Positions 28,620 to 56,599 of a stretch of 64,000 nt of DNA are shown here, piece after piece. This DNA comes from Lactobacillus sp. CBA3606 (GTDB lineage Bacteria > Bacillota > Bacilli > Lactobacillales > Lactobacillaceae): assembly GCF_002970935.1 (NCBI RefSeq), contig NZ_CP027194.1:434001-498000 (forward strand), written 5' to 3'. The position numbers were made by a program, and so were the translations under genes. The stretch's first letter is position 1; each line of letters starts with the position of its first letter. The notes below the pieces were generated by a model. The model saw only the letters and a program-made list of their open reading frames with translations. It searched no databases and was not told the origin of the DNA.

Positions 28620-29990
28620 CTAAGCGGATTGACGGTGAGCTTTAAAGATTTGCTGACCATAGATCGTAATTAGTGAGATAAGTAGCGACAAGCCAATCAA
28701 GGGCCAAGTCATTCCATGTAAATAAGTTAGCTTATCCGTTGCCGTAGTGGGATTGAAGAAGGCCATTAAGCTTAAATGGTGCCCAGCGCTGACCGTTACT
28801 AGTAGTCCGAAAAAGCATAATTGGCAAAGTAACCCACCGTAAGTTGAAAAACGATACTTATTAATGATAGCTAAATCCGGGTCGTTCGCATCGGCCGTGT
28901 AGACACTCGTATTAATTGCCGGGTTTTCAAAACCGACATAGAGGGCAATTAGTAGCAGGCCAATAGTGTATAAAACTGGGATGGTGGTCAACGCTAACAG
29001 ATGCCCAATAATTAGCCCAAGTTGTGCGTGTTTCTTCGCAACGGTGACGACCTGATGAGCCAAGCCGAGGTACAACGGTCGGCCACCTTCGAAGCCTAGC
29101 AAGTAGATGGCAAAAATAATGTACATGCCATGCTTGCCCAGGACGAAGTAACCAAAGAAACTGTTAAACAGTAAGACAAAGCTCACTAAAAATCCCCGAT
29201 TCACAATCCGCAATTTATTAGCCGGCATGGCTTTCCAATCAGCCGCCAATTCTAAGTTTAATAAAACAATCGCTAAAATTACCACGCCCAGGACGTAAGG
29301 TAATGCGATGGTTAGATTGATTTTCCGTAGTAAGGTCAATAAACCAATCGCTGCAAAGAAAATAATGAACCCAAGCACACGCCAAAGCTTGATTGGTTGT
29401 CGTTGTGAACTCGTCTGATGTTTATAGAAAGCCAATGAAAATTGATTCAGTAGGCGGCCGGCGGGGAGCGCCAAAACGAATAGCAGGGCTAAGATAACGA
29501 ATGCTAATCGGTAATGTAGGTCAAATAAGAAATCAGCGACGAATAATAACCCCAGGGCCAAAAAAATAACCCAATAAAGGCGTTTTAATTTGAAATTGGT
29601 ACTAGCGGTTAAATGTAATTTAATCGTTAGAAAGTAGGGCCAAATATTAGATGACGTATAACCAAGACAAATGCCACCAATAATCAGCCAAACCAAATTA
29701 CTAGTTACACTGTAGATAATGCTACCAACGACACCCAGCCAAAGACAAAGTAGTAAATAAGTGCTGGCTTTTAAATTAAGCCGCTTTGTCGAAAACACAC
29801 TTGCAGCGCGAGCAACGTAGAAAACAATAATGGCAACTAAGTAATTAATACTGTGGGTCTGTTGATACTTAAATAAAATTAGCACATAAGGGAGGACGAT
29901 TCCGATGTTAGCCAAAAAGTTTAGCGTTGCAATGGAAAAATCCAAAAACGTATTCCGTAATTTACTCAAAGATTTCACACACCATTTCAT
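28620..29990 (-). CDS. Polytopic membrane protein, MFS-like, unknown
   Basis: This 456-residue protein has about 12-14 hydrophobic helices and a cationic N-terminus, and a size and spacing like MFS carriers; no signature motif (such as the A-loop GxxxDRxGRR) is visible. It is the first gene of the operon with the lactate-permease-family gene, so a linked transport role is possible. The ATG at 29990 has no clear ribosome-binding site; a TATACT lies only about 20 nt upstream, so the message may be nearly leaderless, or translation may begin at a nearby GTG/TTG. Confidence 0.55.
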   Translation of the reverse strand: MKWCVKSLSKLRNTFLDFSIATLNFLANIGIVLPYVLILFKYQQTHSINYLVAIIVFYVARAASVFSTKRLNLKASTYLLLCLWLGVVGSIIYSVTSNLVWLIIGGICLGYTSSNIWPYFLTIKLHLTASTNFKLKRLYWVIFLALGLLFVADFLFDLHYRLAFVILALLFVLALPAGRLLNQFSLAFYKHQTSSQRQPIKLWRVLGFIIFFAAIGLLTLLRKINLTIALPYVLGVVILAIVLLNLELAADWKAMPANKLRIVNRGFLVSFVLLFNSFFGYFVLGKHGMYIIFAIYLLGFEGGRPLYLGLAHQVVTVAKKHAQLGLIIGHLLALTTIPVLYTIGLLLIALYVGFENPAINTSVYTADANDPDLAIINKYRFSTYGGLLCQLCFFGLLVTVSAGHHLSLMAFFNPTTATDKLTYLHGMTWPLIGLSLLISLITIYGQQIFKAHRQSA

Positions 29991-30183: not shown

Positions 30184-30284
30184 TTTAATCAGAACGCATG
30201 TTCCTGTATAATAAAGAATGACTCACTTTAAAACGCAGGAGTTATGTGAGCTCAAAGTTACGTAGTTGTAATGTGTTACTTTAA
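30184..30284 (+). pseudogene. Promoter, ribosome-binding site and 12-codon stub (possible deletion scar)
   Basis: TTTAAT (30184-30189), 17 nt and TATAAT (30207-30212) are followed by GCAGGAG and a GTG at 30246. That start opens only 12 codons before TAA (30282-30284). A complete expression signal in front of so short a frame suggests the 5' remnant of a lost gene rather than a working peptide, but either is possible. Confidence 0.35.
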
Positions 30285-30288
30285 CTAA

Positions 30289-30390
30289 TCACATGCAATC
30301 CAAAAACCTAGCCACCAGCTTATTCGCTTCCTTTGGCTGACGCAACCCCATCAAACCATTTTTCTCACAATTAACTACTAGGGCGAGGGA
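30289..30390 (-). pseudogene. Fragment resembling an alpha/beta-hydrolase C-terminus
   Basis: On the minus strand an open frame of about 35 codons, closed by TGA at 30289-30291, reads SLALVVNCEKNGLMGLRQP followed by KEANKLVARFLDCM. The NGLMG-x-x-x-P and FL ending resemble the last helix of alpha/beta hydrolases, where His usually stands in place of Leu. There is no start codon with a site and a stop lies just upstream, so this looks like gene debris. The rest of the 514-nt gap holds two terminators and the stub at 30184-30284. Confidence 0.35.
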
Positions 30391-42280: not shown

Positions 42281-42325
42281 ATTCTAGTTTACATAATATA
42301 TATTATGCGAAGTAGAAGCTAGAAT
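42281..42325. repeat. 16-bp perfect palindrome nested in a 7-bp inverted repeat
   Basis: CATAATATATATTATG (42292-42307) is a perfect palindrome; ATTCTAG (42281-42287) and CTAGAAT (42319-42325) flank it. It lies in the 539-nt AT-rich gap (42136-42674). No ORF with start signals was seen in the gap; it otherwise holds a promoter-like TTCAGC-17-TATAAT at 42533-42561 and a repeat copy at 42629-42643. Confidence 0.7.
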
Positions 42326-42561: not shown

Positions 42562-42628
42562 CGAACTAACGCTTAGAATCGACCTCTCAGCATGTGTTTA
42601 ATGGCTTGTTTTGTTTTTGATTTTGTGT

Positions 42629-42643
42629 TTTAGTTAAAGTAAC
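42629..42643 (+). repeat. Copy of dispersed motif TTTAGTTAAAGTAAC
   Basis: The same 15-bp word occurs at 52693-52707 on the plus strand, and its last 14 bases occur on the minus strand at 30275-30288. It is 30 nt upstream of the recombinase-like start codon. Confidence 0.6.
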
Positions 42644-42674
42644 GAATCACAACTAGAAAGGATTTCTGACCTCC

Positions 42675-43526
42675 ATGACAATCAATTTCCCCTATGAAAA
42701 AAGTTTTGTGGCGCACTTAACTGCTGCTGATAAGCAACCTAAAACTATCACGCAATATCAATTAACTTTAACTGATTTTTTTAACTATGAACAACACTTT
42801 AACGATACCTTTGCTGCCAGTAATTTACTAGTAGATTTAACTGAAAATGACATTAAACTTTATTTAGCCATGCTGAAAGACAATCGTCACTATCAGCAAT
42901 CGACTTTAAACAAAACACTTTCTAATTTAAATGGCTATTTTAGCTATTTATTTGAACATCGAATTATGCCAACTTTGCCGACCTTTGCAATCAAGGGCCA
43001 GCCACTAACTAACGAACAACTGCCAGCAGATTGGCCGACAACCTTACCAGAATTACTCAAAAATGATGACCTCCATGTCTACACACGTGCTTTCTTGCTA
43101 TTAACTTGCAAAGGTTACACCGTTAGCGAAATGTTGGCCGTTGATTTTTACCAAACACTTAAAAAGATCACTTTCACCACTTCAGAACAGGTGTTCTTAT
43201 CAACATTGACAACTTTTTTGAGTCCTTTACAAAGTCACTCCCAAACTAACGATATCTTCTTGAAAACACGCCAACGTGGTCAGGATCCACATCTTAGTTT
43301 AGCTGCCCTTCATAAATATTTAGCTGGCGATGGGCAACGCCTGGGCTTACCGTTAAAGCCTACCACCATGCGGCAGAGCTATATTTTATGGTACCTTCGT
43401 CAACATCGGTCACTTGATTCAGTCACCGTATTAAAAGTATTACGGCTAGATATTGAGAGTCTCGATTATTATCAAAATTTACTACGCAAACAGGATCTGA
43501 AACGATTACGCTCGGCTAATCAGTAG
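42675..43526 (+). CDS. Tyrosine-recombinase-like protein lacking catalytic residues
   Basis: This 283-residue protein has the layout of XerC/D-type recombinases: a SAM-like core-binding domain (1-100; TITQYQLTLTDFFNYEQ, LNGYFSYLFEHRI) and a catalytic-like domain. The first catalytic Arg (GxRxSE) is replaced in GYTVSE (147-152). HxxR reads TTMR (230-233), the second His box LGH reads LRLD (256-259), and only the second Arg and a Tyr pair (265-266) remain. Compare the intact xerC at 55688-56599, which has all of them. It probably binds DNA or protein without cutting. Start: ATG 42675 after GAAAGGA with 12 nt spacing. A YozE-like gene follows. Confidence 0.75.
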   Translation: MTINFPYEKSFVAHLTAADKQPKTITQYQLTLTDFFNYEQHFNDTFAASNLLVDLTENDIKLYLAMLKDNRHYQQSTLNKTLSNLNGYFSYLFEHRIMPTLPTFAIKGQPLTNEQLPADWPTTLPELLKNDDLHVYTRAFLLLTCKGYTVSEMLAVDFYQTLKKITFTTSEQVFLSTLTTFLSPLQSHSQTNDIFLKTRQRGQDPHLSLAALHKYLAGDGQRLGLPLKPTTMRQSYILWYLRQHRSLDSVTVLKVLRLDIESLDYYQNLLRKQDLKRLRSANQ

Positions 43527-43682: not shown

Positions 43683-43883
43683 ATGACTTTTTATCGCTGG
43701 CTAGAACCGTTTCTAAACCAACACGGCCCGTATTATTCGGCTGCCTGCTACGCCCATTCAGATTTTGATTTCCCATTAACTAGTGATGTCCATGAATTAT
43801 CCAATTACATCACTTACTTAAATATCCGTGATTCGGTAAAAAAATCATTTTATTCGGCTTTAAACGCCTATCAAACCGCCTAA
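43683..43883 (+). CDS. YozE-family SAM-like small protein
   Basis: This 66-residue protein matches the YozE SAM-like pattern: an aromatic N-terminus (TFYRWLEPFL), an FPLTSDVHELSNYITYL helix pair, and the C-terminal FYSALNAYQ. The family is found in Firmicutes and has no settled function. Start: ATG 43683 after GAAAGGATGG; the upstream in-frame ATG at 43665 overlaps that site. It follows the recombinase-like gene by 156 nt in the same direction, with no terminator in between that I can see. Confidence 0.72.
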   Translation: MTFYRWLEPFLNQHGPYYSAACYAHSDFDFPLTSDVHELSNYITYLNIRDSVKKSFYSALNAYQTA

Positions 43884-45070: not shown

Positions 45071-46000
45071 TTAGGCATTAAATGCATCAGTTAATGGTGG
45101 TACAACTTGTTTCTTACGTGAAACAACCCCTGGTAAGCTTAAGCGATTATTTTCGATTTTCTTACCAAAAGCTTTTTCAACTGGTTCCGTTGGGGCCCCA
45201 GCAATAATTAATTCAGAATTACTATCCAAAATGTTAGTTGCTAACATTAAGAATAAATCATAACCTTCAGCAGCATTTTCTGCTTTCGCAGCTGCTTCTA
45301 AGGCGACTTGACGATCAAGTACGTCAGCTAAATCAACGGTATTAATTTGAGCCACTCGCACCGTTGAACCATTCAATTCAAATGATTTGGCATCGGCATC
45401 AATTAATTCTTTTTCACTCTTGCTAGCTAAGTTAGTCCCTGCTTTAAGCATGTCCAACCCATAAGCTTCGTAATCAATTTTTGCAATATTTGCCAAGTCT
45501 TTAACAACAGCTACATCAGTTGGCGTTGTTGTTGGTGACTTCAACAATAACGTATCTGAAATGATTGCTGAAAGCATTAATCCGGCTAACTTAGCTGGAA
45601 TTTCAACATTGTTTTCTTTAAATAACTTGTATATAACAGTGCTACAGCAACCAAGTGGTTCAGCCCGGTAAAACAATGGTTGAGTCGTTTCAAAACCAGC
45701 AATCCGATGATGATCAACCACATGAGTCACTGTAACATCAGCAATATCGCTGACACTTTGTTGTGGTTCATTATGATCAACTAACATAACCTCACTAACT
45801 TCAGGTGCCGCTTTAGTGATGACCCGTAGTGCGGGTTCGTCAAAATAATCTAAAACAAATTTAGTTTCTTCATTAGGTTCGCCCAAAGCAACTGCTTCAG
45901 TATCCATCCCTAACTTGTTATCTAAATATGAAAGTGCCTTAGCAGCAACAATTGCGTCAGTATCCGGACTTTGATGACCGAAAATTAATTCTTTGCTCAT
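45071..46000 (-). CDS. ppaC: Manganese-dependent inorganic pyrophosphatase
   Basis: This 309-residue family II pyrophosphatase of the DHH superfamily has [15 protein letters not shown] (metal-binding His/Asp), [20 protein letters not shown] and the C-terminal [10 protein letters not shown] substrate motif. It hydrolyses PPi in the cytoplasm. It lies 21 nt after the LysR gene in the same direction with AAGGGAG as its site, so it may be partly read from the LysR promoter. Confidence 0.96.
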
Positions 46001-51878: not shown

Positions 51879-51997
51879 CTTAATTGTAATCAATCGCCCC
51901 ACCGTTTGTCAACTGAAAATTTTTTAATCAAAACTGACCCGATTGCCCTTAAAGCATGCTAAAATATTGGTTGACTCTATTACAGGAGGACTCAATT

Positions 51998-52612
51998 GTG
52001 GAAATTATACTCATGCTGATTGTCGCCTATTTGCTAGGTGCAATTCCTTCGGGTGTCATCATTGGCAAGCTTTTCTTTCATACGGATATTCGCCAAGCGG
52101 GTAGCGGAAATATTGGTACGACCAACACTTATCGGGTACTAGGCCCAACCGCTGGCACCATCGTAATGGCTATGGACATCTTAAAAGGAACCCTAGCGGC
52201 TGCACAACCAGCGCTCTTTCATTTACCCGTTAATGCGCTATTGATTGGTTTAGGGGCCATCGTCGGCCATACTTTCTCAATCTTTATTGGTTTTAAAGGT
52301 GGCAAAGCGGTCGCCACTAGTGCGGGCATTCTATTAGCCTATAACTGGCATTTCTTCTTAATTGCCAGTGCCATTATGTTCACATTAGTCTATCTAACCA
52401 GTATGGTTAGCGTTGCGAGCATGACCTCACTAACCTTAGTTAGCCTAATTGCAATCTTCTATTATCAAGATTGGATTTTATCCGTCATTGCAGTCATATT
52501 AACCATCTTTATTTTCTATCGGCACCGAACTAATATTAAACGTATTTTAGCTGGGACCGAATCGTTAGTGCATTTTGGGCTTGGCTGGCGCCACTATCAA
52601 CGTAAGCAGTAA
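51998..52612 (+). CDS. plsY: Acyl-phosphate glycerol-3-phosphate acyltransferase
   Basis: This 204-residue PlsY protein has five or more membrane helices and the three conserved motifs: IPSGVIIGKLF near the first loop, GSGNIGTTNTYRVLG near 36-50 and FKGGKAVATSAG near 100-112. It makes lysophosphatidic acid at the membrane. I use GTG 51998 with ACAGGAGG upstream; the open frame to 51956 does not carry a site. It is divergent from parE. Confidence 0.94.
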   Translation: MEIILMLIVAYLLGAIPSGVIIGKLFFHTDIRQAGSGNIGTTNTYRVLGPTAGTIVMAMDILKGTLAAAQPALFHLPVNALLIGLGAIVGHTFSIFIGFKGGKAVATSAGILLAYNWHFFLIASAIMFTLVYLTSMVSVASMTSLTLVSLIAIFYYQDWILSVIAVILTIFIFYRHRTNIKRILAGTESLVHFGLGWRHYQRKQ

Positions 52613-52648: not shown

Positions 52649-52692
52649 GCTGGGTTAAAAATTGGGTTATTGCGGGTGTTGATTTTGTTTGC

Positions 52693-52707
52693 TTTAGTTA
52701 AAGTAAC
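52693..52707 (+). repeat. Copy of dispersed motif TTTAGTTAAAGTAAC
   Basis: Second plus-strand copy, between two convergent terminators and so not at a promoter. Both plus-strand copies are preceded by TTGATTTTGT within 6 nt. Confidence 0.6.
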
Positions 52708-52737
52708 ATAATACTAATTGATTATTTTAACAAAAAC

Positions 52738-55687: not shown

Positions 55688-56599
55688 CTATTCCCGCGTT
55701 GCGCGTGGGAAGAAATTTCGATAATCTTGCTGTAAATGTTCCTTAGTGACGTGGGCATAAATCTGCGTGGTTGATAAACTCGTATGCCCCAATAATTCTT
55801 GGACCGTTCGTAAATCAGCCCCGTTGTTTAGCATTTGGGTCGCAAACGTATGGCGTAACATATGGGGATGGATATCTGCAGTCAAACTACTTTTTTTCAC
55901 AATTTGATTTAAGACGTATTCAATCCCACCACCCGTAATGGCACCACCATGGCGATTAATAAACACTGTCGTATGGGTCTGGTCATATTGTGCCATGACT
56001 GGCGTTCGACACTGCTCAAAATACTGTTGTAAGGCTTGAGCAGCGTACCGCCCAAATGGCACATAACGTTCCTTATCGCCTTTCCCACGAATCAGCATCA
56101 TCTTTAAGTCAAAGTCGACGTCGGCTAATTGTAAATTGACACACTCACTCAACCGAATACCAGTTCCATACAGGACCTCTAACAAGGCGGCGTTTCGTGA
56201 CCCCATCAAGGACTCATCCGCATAGACGGTCTTAAACAACACATCTAATTCTTTTTGGTAAAAGAAGCGTGGCAACCGCGCGGCATGTTTCTTTAATTGC
56301 ACGTAAATAAACGGATTCAATTTTGCCAAATCATTTTTAACAAGAAAATTATAAAAGGACCGTAAACTAGAGACTTTACGGGCAATTGAATTCCGCGTTA
56401 AATGGCGGTCATACAACGCACTTAAGTAAACGTTCACATCTAAATGGTCAACTGCCGTATAGGACTTAGCGCCACCGTTAGCTGTTAAGAAGGTGTCAAA
56501 CGCTTGAATATCTTCGCGATATGCCACCGCCGTTTCTGGCGAATACTGCCGTTCAACCCGTACATATTTTAAAAACAAATCCAAGTACTGTTGTTCCAT
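55688..56599 (-). CDS. xerC: Tyrosine recombinase XerC
   Basis: This 303-residue protein has all catalytic residues visible: Arg in GTGIRLSE, Lys in RGKGDKERYVPF, HMLRHTFAT (His, Arg), LLGHTSLSTTQIY (His, Tyr). It resolves chromosome dimers with XerD at dif. It lies downstream of trmFO, separated by a strong hairpin, and 16 nt upstream of hslV. The GGAGG site lies 9 nt before the ATG across a T7 tract. Confidence 0.96.
   Translation of the reverse strand: MEQQYLDLFLKYVRVERQYSPETAVAYREDIQAFDTFLTANGGAKSYTAVDHLDVNVYLSALYDRHLTRNSIARKVSSLRSFYNFLVKNDLAKLNPFIYVQLKKHAARLPRFFYQKELDVLFKTVYADESLMGSRNAALLEVLYGTGIRLSECVNLQLADVDFDLKMMLIRGKGDKERYVPFGRYAAQALQQYFEQCRTPVMAQYDQTHTTVFINRHGGAITGGGIEYVLNQIVKKSSLTADIHPHMLRHTFATQMLNNGADLRTVQELLGHTSLSTTQIYAHVTKEHLQQDYRNFFPRATRE

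Follow-up and report, generated by a model that had tools for sequence, protein, structure and literature searches.

The gene at positions 42675–43526 of the window (the whole 64,000-nucleotide stretch of Lactobacillus sp. CBA3606 DNA analysed here) codes for a homologue of the Xer recombinases that has lost most of its catalytic residues; the gene lies next to a dif-like site, and polar sequence elements occur upstream of the gene and flank dif to the left and right. We consider its product to be a DNA-binding protein that arose from a Xer recombinase and is specific to the terminus, most likely a one-way roadblock, and would give this reading a probability of about 55%. The chances seem about even that the Lactobacillaceae have here a third, independent fork trap, in which a dead Xer protein encoded near dif, and controlling its own gene, stops replication forks at polar sites. 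Gene and polar sites together look like an unrecognised replication-ending system of lactobacilli; in the titles and abstract openings covered by our literature search, neither the site nor a fork trap of lactobacilli is described.

The gene and the fold of its product

The reading frame runs on the forward strand from an ATG at 42675 to a stop codon ending at 43526 and specifies 283 amino acids. Both its coordinates and its intact frame had been read correctly in the earlier note, made from the sequence letters, and the SAM-like domain and the genus orthologues of the product show that the gene is real. The only Pfam domains to pass the cut-offs in this protein are the N-terminal SAM-like domains of phage integrases (PF13495, E 3.3e-7; PF02899, E 7.9e-6), both of which are also found in 40 of the 40 aligned family members (E 0.1 or better). 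The catalytic domain PF00589 (Phage_integrase) was undetected in the window protein at E up to 1 and in all 40 aligned members at E up to 0.1, and the six PF00589 matches in the genome do not include the window protein. Judged by profile comparison, homology to XerD holds past the N-terminal domain: hhalign aligned the family profile (58 sequences) with the XerD profile (28 sequences) with a probability of 97.8% and E 8.5e-13.

The AlphaFold model of the protein (pLDDT 91.0, pTM 0.61) matches Xer/Int/Cre folds, including XerA, lambda Int and XerD, with large rmsd values and with Z scores that are middling for a helical model; for the structure of MrpR (8a0a), Z is 9.7, again middling for such a model, and rmsd is 14.7 over 247 residues. 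A sequence search against solved structures returned weak, unrelated matches only. The protein had been described as a two-domain, Xer-like one whose fold-defining hydrophobic pattern and length stay intact. The overlay does return Xer/Int/Cre structures, but the model contains no strand of three or more residues, and the fold is not wholly intact. When net charge and pI were compared with regard to DNA binding, the median pI was 8.8 in the family versus 9.5 in XerD.

The genome has two separate XerC/XerD-type genes besides the dead Xer gene; a Xer gene with its catalytic motifs present lies in the window at 55688–56599. A promoter-like site claimed for the dead Xer gene did not hold up, since a sigma-70 scan gave 5 sites versus 6.1 expected, which is no better than chance. 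Rfam models yielded nothing near gathering scores around the gene.

Loss of the active site and selection

The catalytic columns were read after 64 family sequences had been aligned together with 28 from XerD. The first Arg is replaced by T in the window protein and is R in 2 family members, versus 28 of 28 in XerD. In the catalytic Lys column all 64 family sequences show a gap, hence the part with the Lys has been deleted and not merely replaced. The His of HxxR is T in the window protein (H in 1/64 family members), and the His of LGH is R (H in 10/64). The second Arg is present in the window protein (R233) and in 22 of the 64, the Glu following the first Arg is retained in 53, and the Tyr column holds Tyr in 63, the window protein being one of them; among the 40 aligned members Tyr265 and Tyr266 are invariant. 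Thus, the losses listed in the earlier note stand for the first Arg and for both His residues; the Lys, taken there as replaced, is deleted, and the remaining second Arg, Glu and Tyr had been overlooked.

Within the genus (Lactiplantibacillus, judged by named relatives), the gene has orthologues in 20 of the 20 other genomes searched, with 63–94% identity. A fully intact catalytic set, which in close relatives would speak for recent decay, was absent from all 64 family sequences examined. The second check proposed, a dN/dS test, gave omega of 0.024–0.088, hence not near 1, in the six sister pairs with dS <1, and only these pairs were used, as values beyond dS 1 are near saturation; in the 67 pairs with dS <2, likewise near saturation, the median was 0.52, with values up to at least 0.80. 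From the lost catalytic residues, the homology to XerD and the low omega we conclude that the window protein is an old, constrained and inactive Xer paralogue, and on the orthologue survey and omega we regard recent decay as excluded. The earlier proposal of a retained, catalytically dead paralogue that binds DNA fits these observations, with the binding as its predicted part.

Distribution of the family and gene neighbourhood

In a profile search of 397 genomes of the Lactobacillaceae and 246 genomes of the order, strong members were confined to the Lactobacillaceae and one outlier, G522; many other genera of the Lactobacillaceae carry homologues, mostly of 31–43% identity. The open frames in the fetched loci fall into two classes by score, family members at 112 bits or more and XerD at 37 bits or less, with none between. 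In what follows, genomes with a match of E 1e-20 or better are counted as having the gene, including G044, where the copy is broken (L059, 4576–4959) and no site match is found in the genome. The homologue in G522 (L062, 5994–7028) is without the paired tyrosines and without a site upstream, and its neighbours, judged by eye, resemble ParA and a replication initiator. Divergent homologues (L113, L114, L115) are carried by megaplasmids of Ligilactobacillus salivarius and by one plasmid each of Lactiplantibacillus and Lactobacillus, and are annotated as integrase or integrase SAM-like; within 8 kb on either side of these three, no annotated replication or partition gene adjoins them. A further record labelled as a Limosilactobacillus fermentum plasmid (L116, CP033373.1) carries rpsA, CMP kinase and HU genes and is therefore probably a piece of chromosome. 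A search of 50,697 phage records gave no match to the window protein.

In the window, the gene is followed by a yozE-like gene (43683–43883, forward strand; PF06855, E 4.1e-12), and yozE comes after the gene in 20 of the 21 genus loci examined, the remaining locus ending too soon. Outside the genus the surroundings change: the gene stands between a TPR gene and either cca or dapB and cca (L028, L047), an arrangement that several further loci resemble by frame sizes; in genus g4 (L055, L056) the neighbour is a relative of the window gene at 45071–46000. Since yozE also carries its own conserved upstream region, the functional link with it suggested at the outset is weak, and we do not think that the yozE-like neighbour is part of the system.

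Position of the gene relative to dif

The dif-like site ACTTCGCATAATATATATTATGTAAACT (42286–42313, reverse strand), which we take to differ from B. subtilis dif by 3 mismatches, sits in the 540-bp gap upstream of the gene, 362 bp from it. It is the sole match to the dif pattern (up to 3 mismatches) in its genome, and it coincides with the peak of the cumulative GC skew, which climbs to about 42 kb of the window and then drops. The same arrangement was observed in the genus, where dif precedes the gene by 362–566 bp and is oriented alike in all 20 loci with upstream sequence (one of the 21 loci, cut upstream, was left out). The dif pattern was matched in 107 of the 121 family genomes. Among the 44 genomes with the gene, 24 have gene and dif on one contig; in all 24 the gene is transcribed away from dif, at a distance of 0.4–161 kb (outside the genus, 7–161 kb). 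In many genomes xerC or xerD lies within tens of kb of the gene.

Sites upstream of the gene and around dif

The alignment of genus upstream regions contains a TTAGTTAAAGTAAC-like sequence about 45 bp ahead of the ATG. In the window the corresponding promoter-region site (42607–42652, forward strand) has its core GTTAAAGTAAC at 42633–42643, 31 bp ahead of the ATG. The exact 13-mer TAGTTAAAGTAAC has three copies in the 2.56-Mb genome, all of them within the window (at 30275 on the minus strand and at 42631 and 52695 on the plus strand). When one mismatch is tolerated, it has 11 matches in this genome versus 26 for the reversed control and so is not enriched, while the 21 genus genomes contain 40 exact copies versus 13 of the reversed pattern. 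The signal resides in exact copies of the 13-mer together with their flanks. In the 21 non-promoter copies (two further exact 13-mers, in L130 and L154, were excluded as being without the TTAC half) TAC is found at fixed 3' positions in 21 of 21, and the 5' flank is mostly GT-rich, so the genus form of the site is a GT-rich flank, TTAGTTAAAGTAAC and NNNTTAC.

The model R1 was built from these 21 non-promoter genus sites. It finds three strong sites in the window: the left terminus site (30265–30314, reverse strand, 39.1 bits; TAGTTAAAGTAAC at 30275–30287) and the right one (52669–52718, forward strand, 37.6 bits; TAGTTAAAGTAAC at 52695–52707), both in the training set, and the promoter-region site (30.5 bits), which was not used in training. 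The right site occupies the gap between two convergent genes, presumably plsY and galM.

Other elements were seen nearby. A second conserved upstream element, CTTAGAATNNNNCTCTCAGCA (42572–42592, forward strand), was found in the genus alignment about 100 bp upstream of the gene; it is matched in full once in the genome, and with 2 mismatches on contig C4. Some terminus sites (L138, L117, L146, L151, L156 and others) have an extra box, approximately TAAGCTGGTGGCTGG, 20–40 bp 5' of the core. A likeness of the core to a dif arm (8 of 11 positions) was dropped, because 2029 of 20,000 shuffles were as good.

Orientation of the sites in the genus

In the R1 search 150 first-look candidates per genome, of hundreds to thousands, were scored. 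Among these candidates we observed 51 matches with E 1e-3 or better in the 21 genus genomes: 16 to the left of dif, all inverted, 10–43 kb from the gene; 17 to the right, all direct, 9–34 kb from the gene; 9 at the gene promoter; and 9 on other contigs, with none elsewhere on the contig of the gene. Thus, the polarity of the flanking sites is as predicted in 33 of 33 scorable cases at this threshold; many of these matches had trained R1, polarity being no input. The genus sites are asymmetric and polar, and number two to three per genome at E 1e-3. Relaxing the threshold to E 0.1 gave 71 matches among the candidates scored, the additional 20 being weaker promoter sites in eight more genomes, four sites before yozE, three distant ones on the same contig and five on other contigs. 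In four loci (L020, L023, L026, L027) a second copy of the site precedes yozE, and the promoter copy of the gene has one base changed.

Among the training sites, 12 of the 21 adjoin a relative of the window gene at 51956–52612, always on its strand, and six are upstream of a relative of the gene at 28620–29990. In six loci the left site precedes a gene that shares its strand, hence a transcriptional role is possible there. At the right sites, the GT-rich strand is the one with negative GC skew, and leading-strand bias would thus predict the opposite orientation.

Sites in other genera and co-occurrence with the gene

In most of the genera examined, the core GTTAAAGTAAC precedes the start codon by approximately 30–95 bp. 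Allowing 2 mismatches and 110 bp from the start, it was found in 31 of 37 loci, in 22 of them as an exact match; the seven loci excluded from this count (four of g4, the broken L059, the plasmid-type L060 and L062 of G522) all have no core within these limits, so that the full count is 31 of 44. Members of g38, which are 23–25% identical, are among the loci with the core, and their core is exact though the FLKxR and HKYL residues of other genera are replaced. A link between the loss of these residues and the loss of the site, as seen in g4 and G522, was dropped because g38 has the site without the residues.

In approximately 80 kb around dif, 10 genera with the gene have 9 exact non-promoter cores, 8 of them with the predicted polarity, versus 1 such core in 10 genera without the gene. 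A second model, R2, comprising 21 terminus and 31 promoter sites, was run on the 121 family genomes, with 50 first-look candidates per genome scored of hundreds to thousands. Among the candidates scored, any match was found in 38 of the 44 genomes with the gene versus 8 of the 77 without it. As promoter matches vanish together with the gene by definition, the count of non-promoter matches is fairer, and it is 33/44 versus 8/77 among the candidates scored; without the training genus, 29 of 40 genomes with the gene have such a match (Fisher p 1e-11, genomes of the same genus not being independent). Matches outside the genus are few (1–4 per genome) and their scores are modest (E 7e-8 to 0.01 per genome).

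A non-promoter match within 150 kb of dif is present in 22/44 versus 1/77 genomes. The near-dif matches in genomes with the gene have the predicted polarity in 30 of 30 cases, and in 24 of 24, from nine genera, without the training genus, whereas the lone match in a gene-less genome has the wrong one. Site matches occur in genomes with the gene from 15 genera, and polarity, scorable in 10, is always as predicted. Beyond 150 kb, two matches are right and one is wrong in genomes with the gene, versus one right and one wrong in gene-less genomes; 23 and 6 non-promoter matches, respectively, have no dif on the contig and hence are unscorable. One exact 13-mer in a gene-less genome (G050, C41:283444) is situated 232 bp from dif with the wrong polarity.

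Gene and sites may also be followed within genera. In g21 two genomes (G165, G191) have both and two (G040, G076) neither. In g27 one genome (G171) has both and another (G046) neither, and the gene-less G082 and G196 each have one weak match, which is 188 kb from dif in one case and on a different contig in the other. Gene loss coincides with the absence of a match in g6 (G064) and in g25 (G044, with the broken gene), but the matches of their relatives are at promoters or on contigs without dif, so both contrasts say little; in g25 the inspected promoter (L050) is without the core, and all matches are on dif-less contigs. In g4 (G023, G062, G152, G178) the gene is near dif, there is no R2 match among the candidates scored, and the promoters (L055, L056, L072, L073) have no core; G192 also has the gene and no R2 match among the candidates scored.

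Eight intergenic non-promoter sites of other genera were inspected, two of which carry one mismatch; in every case the first gene met in the site's direction lies on the opposing strand. Four further cores inspected lie inside long reading frames: two have the correct polarity, one the wrong polarity, and one is in a gene-less genome.

Proposed mechanism and comparison with known systems

We propose the following scheme. The protein, having lost catalysis, would bind the polar sites, and the site in the upstream region of its gene should allow it to regulate its own expression. The other sites flank dif on opposite strands; forks heading to dif would pass them, and forks that have passed dif and are about to leave would halt at the GT-rich face of the next site. 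By the logic of Tus and RTP, a fork leaving the terminus would meet this face first and stop, and with outward forks halted at the next site, replication would end near dif. Against the scheme speak the small number of sites per genome, the exceptions g4, g25 and G192, the exact core in g38 despite its replaced residues, and the position of the left genus site, often ahead of a same-strand gene.

Two unrelated fork traps, Tus/Ter and RTP/Ter, are described in PMC6549158, according to which tus and rtp occur in four clades only, RTP is reported only in a subgroup of the Bacillales, and the ter sites ring the terminus and stop forks only if these travel away from dif. RTP is characterised as a dimer-forming terminator protein, both terminator genes as autoregulated and carrying a ter site in the promoter, and the purpose of fork traps as still debated (PMC10331603). 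Like the system considered here, Tus/Ter of E. coli has a site in the promoter of the terminator gene and non-palindromic polar sites oriented to dif, as described in PMC10331603 and PMC6549158; unlike it, Tus/Ter has other sites, the window protein is without a Pfam match to Tus, and arrest is established there and predicted here. RTP/Ter of B. subtilis is described with the same architecture, in what is also a Firmicute, but the protein here is derived from Xer and has no Pfam match to RTP. The features of a fork trap that we observe are thus oppositely oriented polar sites flanking dif (33/33 in the genus and 24/24 outside) and a terminus-proximal gene whose promoter region contains a site (in the window and in 31 of the 44 other-genus loci, g4 excepted), whereas Pfam homology to Tus or RTP is lacking. 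Polar terminus sites are known in kind, and the protein, as judged by Pfam, is unrelated to Tus and RTP.

There is also precedent for a dead Xer-type fold as a DNA-bound regulator: MrpR (YopR), the master repressor of SPbeta, is described as a dead tyrosine-recombinase fold that binds a repeated element (PMC10516654). The fold of phi3T SroF (9rd5), known to us by the title of its entry alone, is matched as well. Both MrpR and SroF are phage-encoded, whereas the window gene is chromosomal, as are its orthologues in the 20 other genus genomes searched, and its sites flank dif with a definite polarity. XerC/XerD and XerS are homologous to the window protein, which differs in having lost most catalytic residues; XerS is described as genetically linked to its dif-like motif (PMC2731167). 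As the genus sites are asymmetric, polar and two to three per genome at E 1e-3, they differ from those of MatP/matS. The matS sites are palindromic and distributed across a large terminus domain. Among Xer paralogues, the streptococcal XerD-like protein is not known to act at dif, and its gene lies beside scpA.

Alternative explanations

The earlier note had offered three guesses at the role of the protein, concerning dif recombination, the organisation of the nucleoid or the YozE-like gene; of these, the link with the terminus and dif is strongly supported by the adjoining dif and the polar flanking sites. Such a link could also mean that the protein, bound to these polar sites, serves to organise the terminus or, as an accessory or MatP-like factor, helps XerCD to resolve dimers at dif, without stopping forks. 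The adjacency of dif in 20 of the 20 genus loci with upstream sequence, the homology to XerD and the frequent presence of xerC or xerD within tens of kb would suit this reading. Accessory or macrodomain sites, however, have no evident need for strictly opposite polarity at positions mostly 9–60 kb out on both sides, and outside the genus the gene itself is 7–161 kb from dif; we hold this role to be possible but rather unlikely, and regulation of dif recombination itself remains a rival rather than the best reading. If, on the other hand, the protein were an MrpR-like repressor, i.e. a dead tyrosine recombinase with a small regulon of its own gene and a few others, its location at the terminus would be incidental. 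MrpR, which is described as such a repressor acting on a repeated element (PMC10516654) and matches the model (8a0a, Z 9.7), provides the precedent, and the site in the gene's own upstream region, the second site before yozE in four genomes and the frequent position of the left genus site upstream of a same-strand gene point the same way. The right genus site, in contrast, lies between convergent genes, the 8 intergenic non-promoter sites inspected elsewhere all face a gene on the opposite strand, and the switch of polarity at dif would be left unexplained, all of which makes such a repressor improbable.

The assignment of the sites to the dead Xer protein is itself our reading, and another protein might bind them, the dead Xer gene being merely one of its targets; g4, with the gene but without the sites, and the eight gene-less genomes with a match would then find an explanation. 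Yet non-promoter sites track the gene (33/44 versus 8/77; near dif, 22/44 versus 1/77), they follow it within g21 and, less cleanly, within g27, and terminator genes whose promoters carry such a site are already described (PMC10331603), so we consider a different binder quite improbable. A decaying, functionless relic of a recombinase is barely conceivable: the lost catalytic residues and the one broken copy (G044) would agree with it, but the omega of the six close pairs, the retention of the gene in 20 of the 20 other genus genomes searched and the conserved upstream site would not.

Implications

The preferred reading, a dead Xer protein acting as a polar roadblock at the terminus, offers a testable role for a gene whose plasmid homologues are labelled integrase. 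If it is true, a third fork trap would have arisen, this time from a recombinase fold, which would speak for a convergent need for polar termination, and lactobacilli would provide a tractable, food-grade system for testing such termination. Even if the role of the protein were the organisation of the terminus, a dif-linked protein and its DNA site would have been defined.
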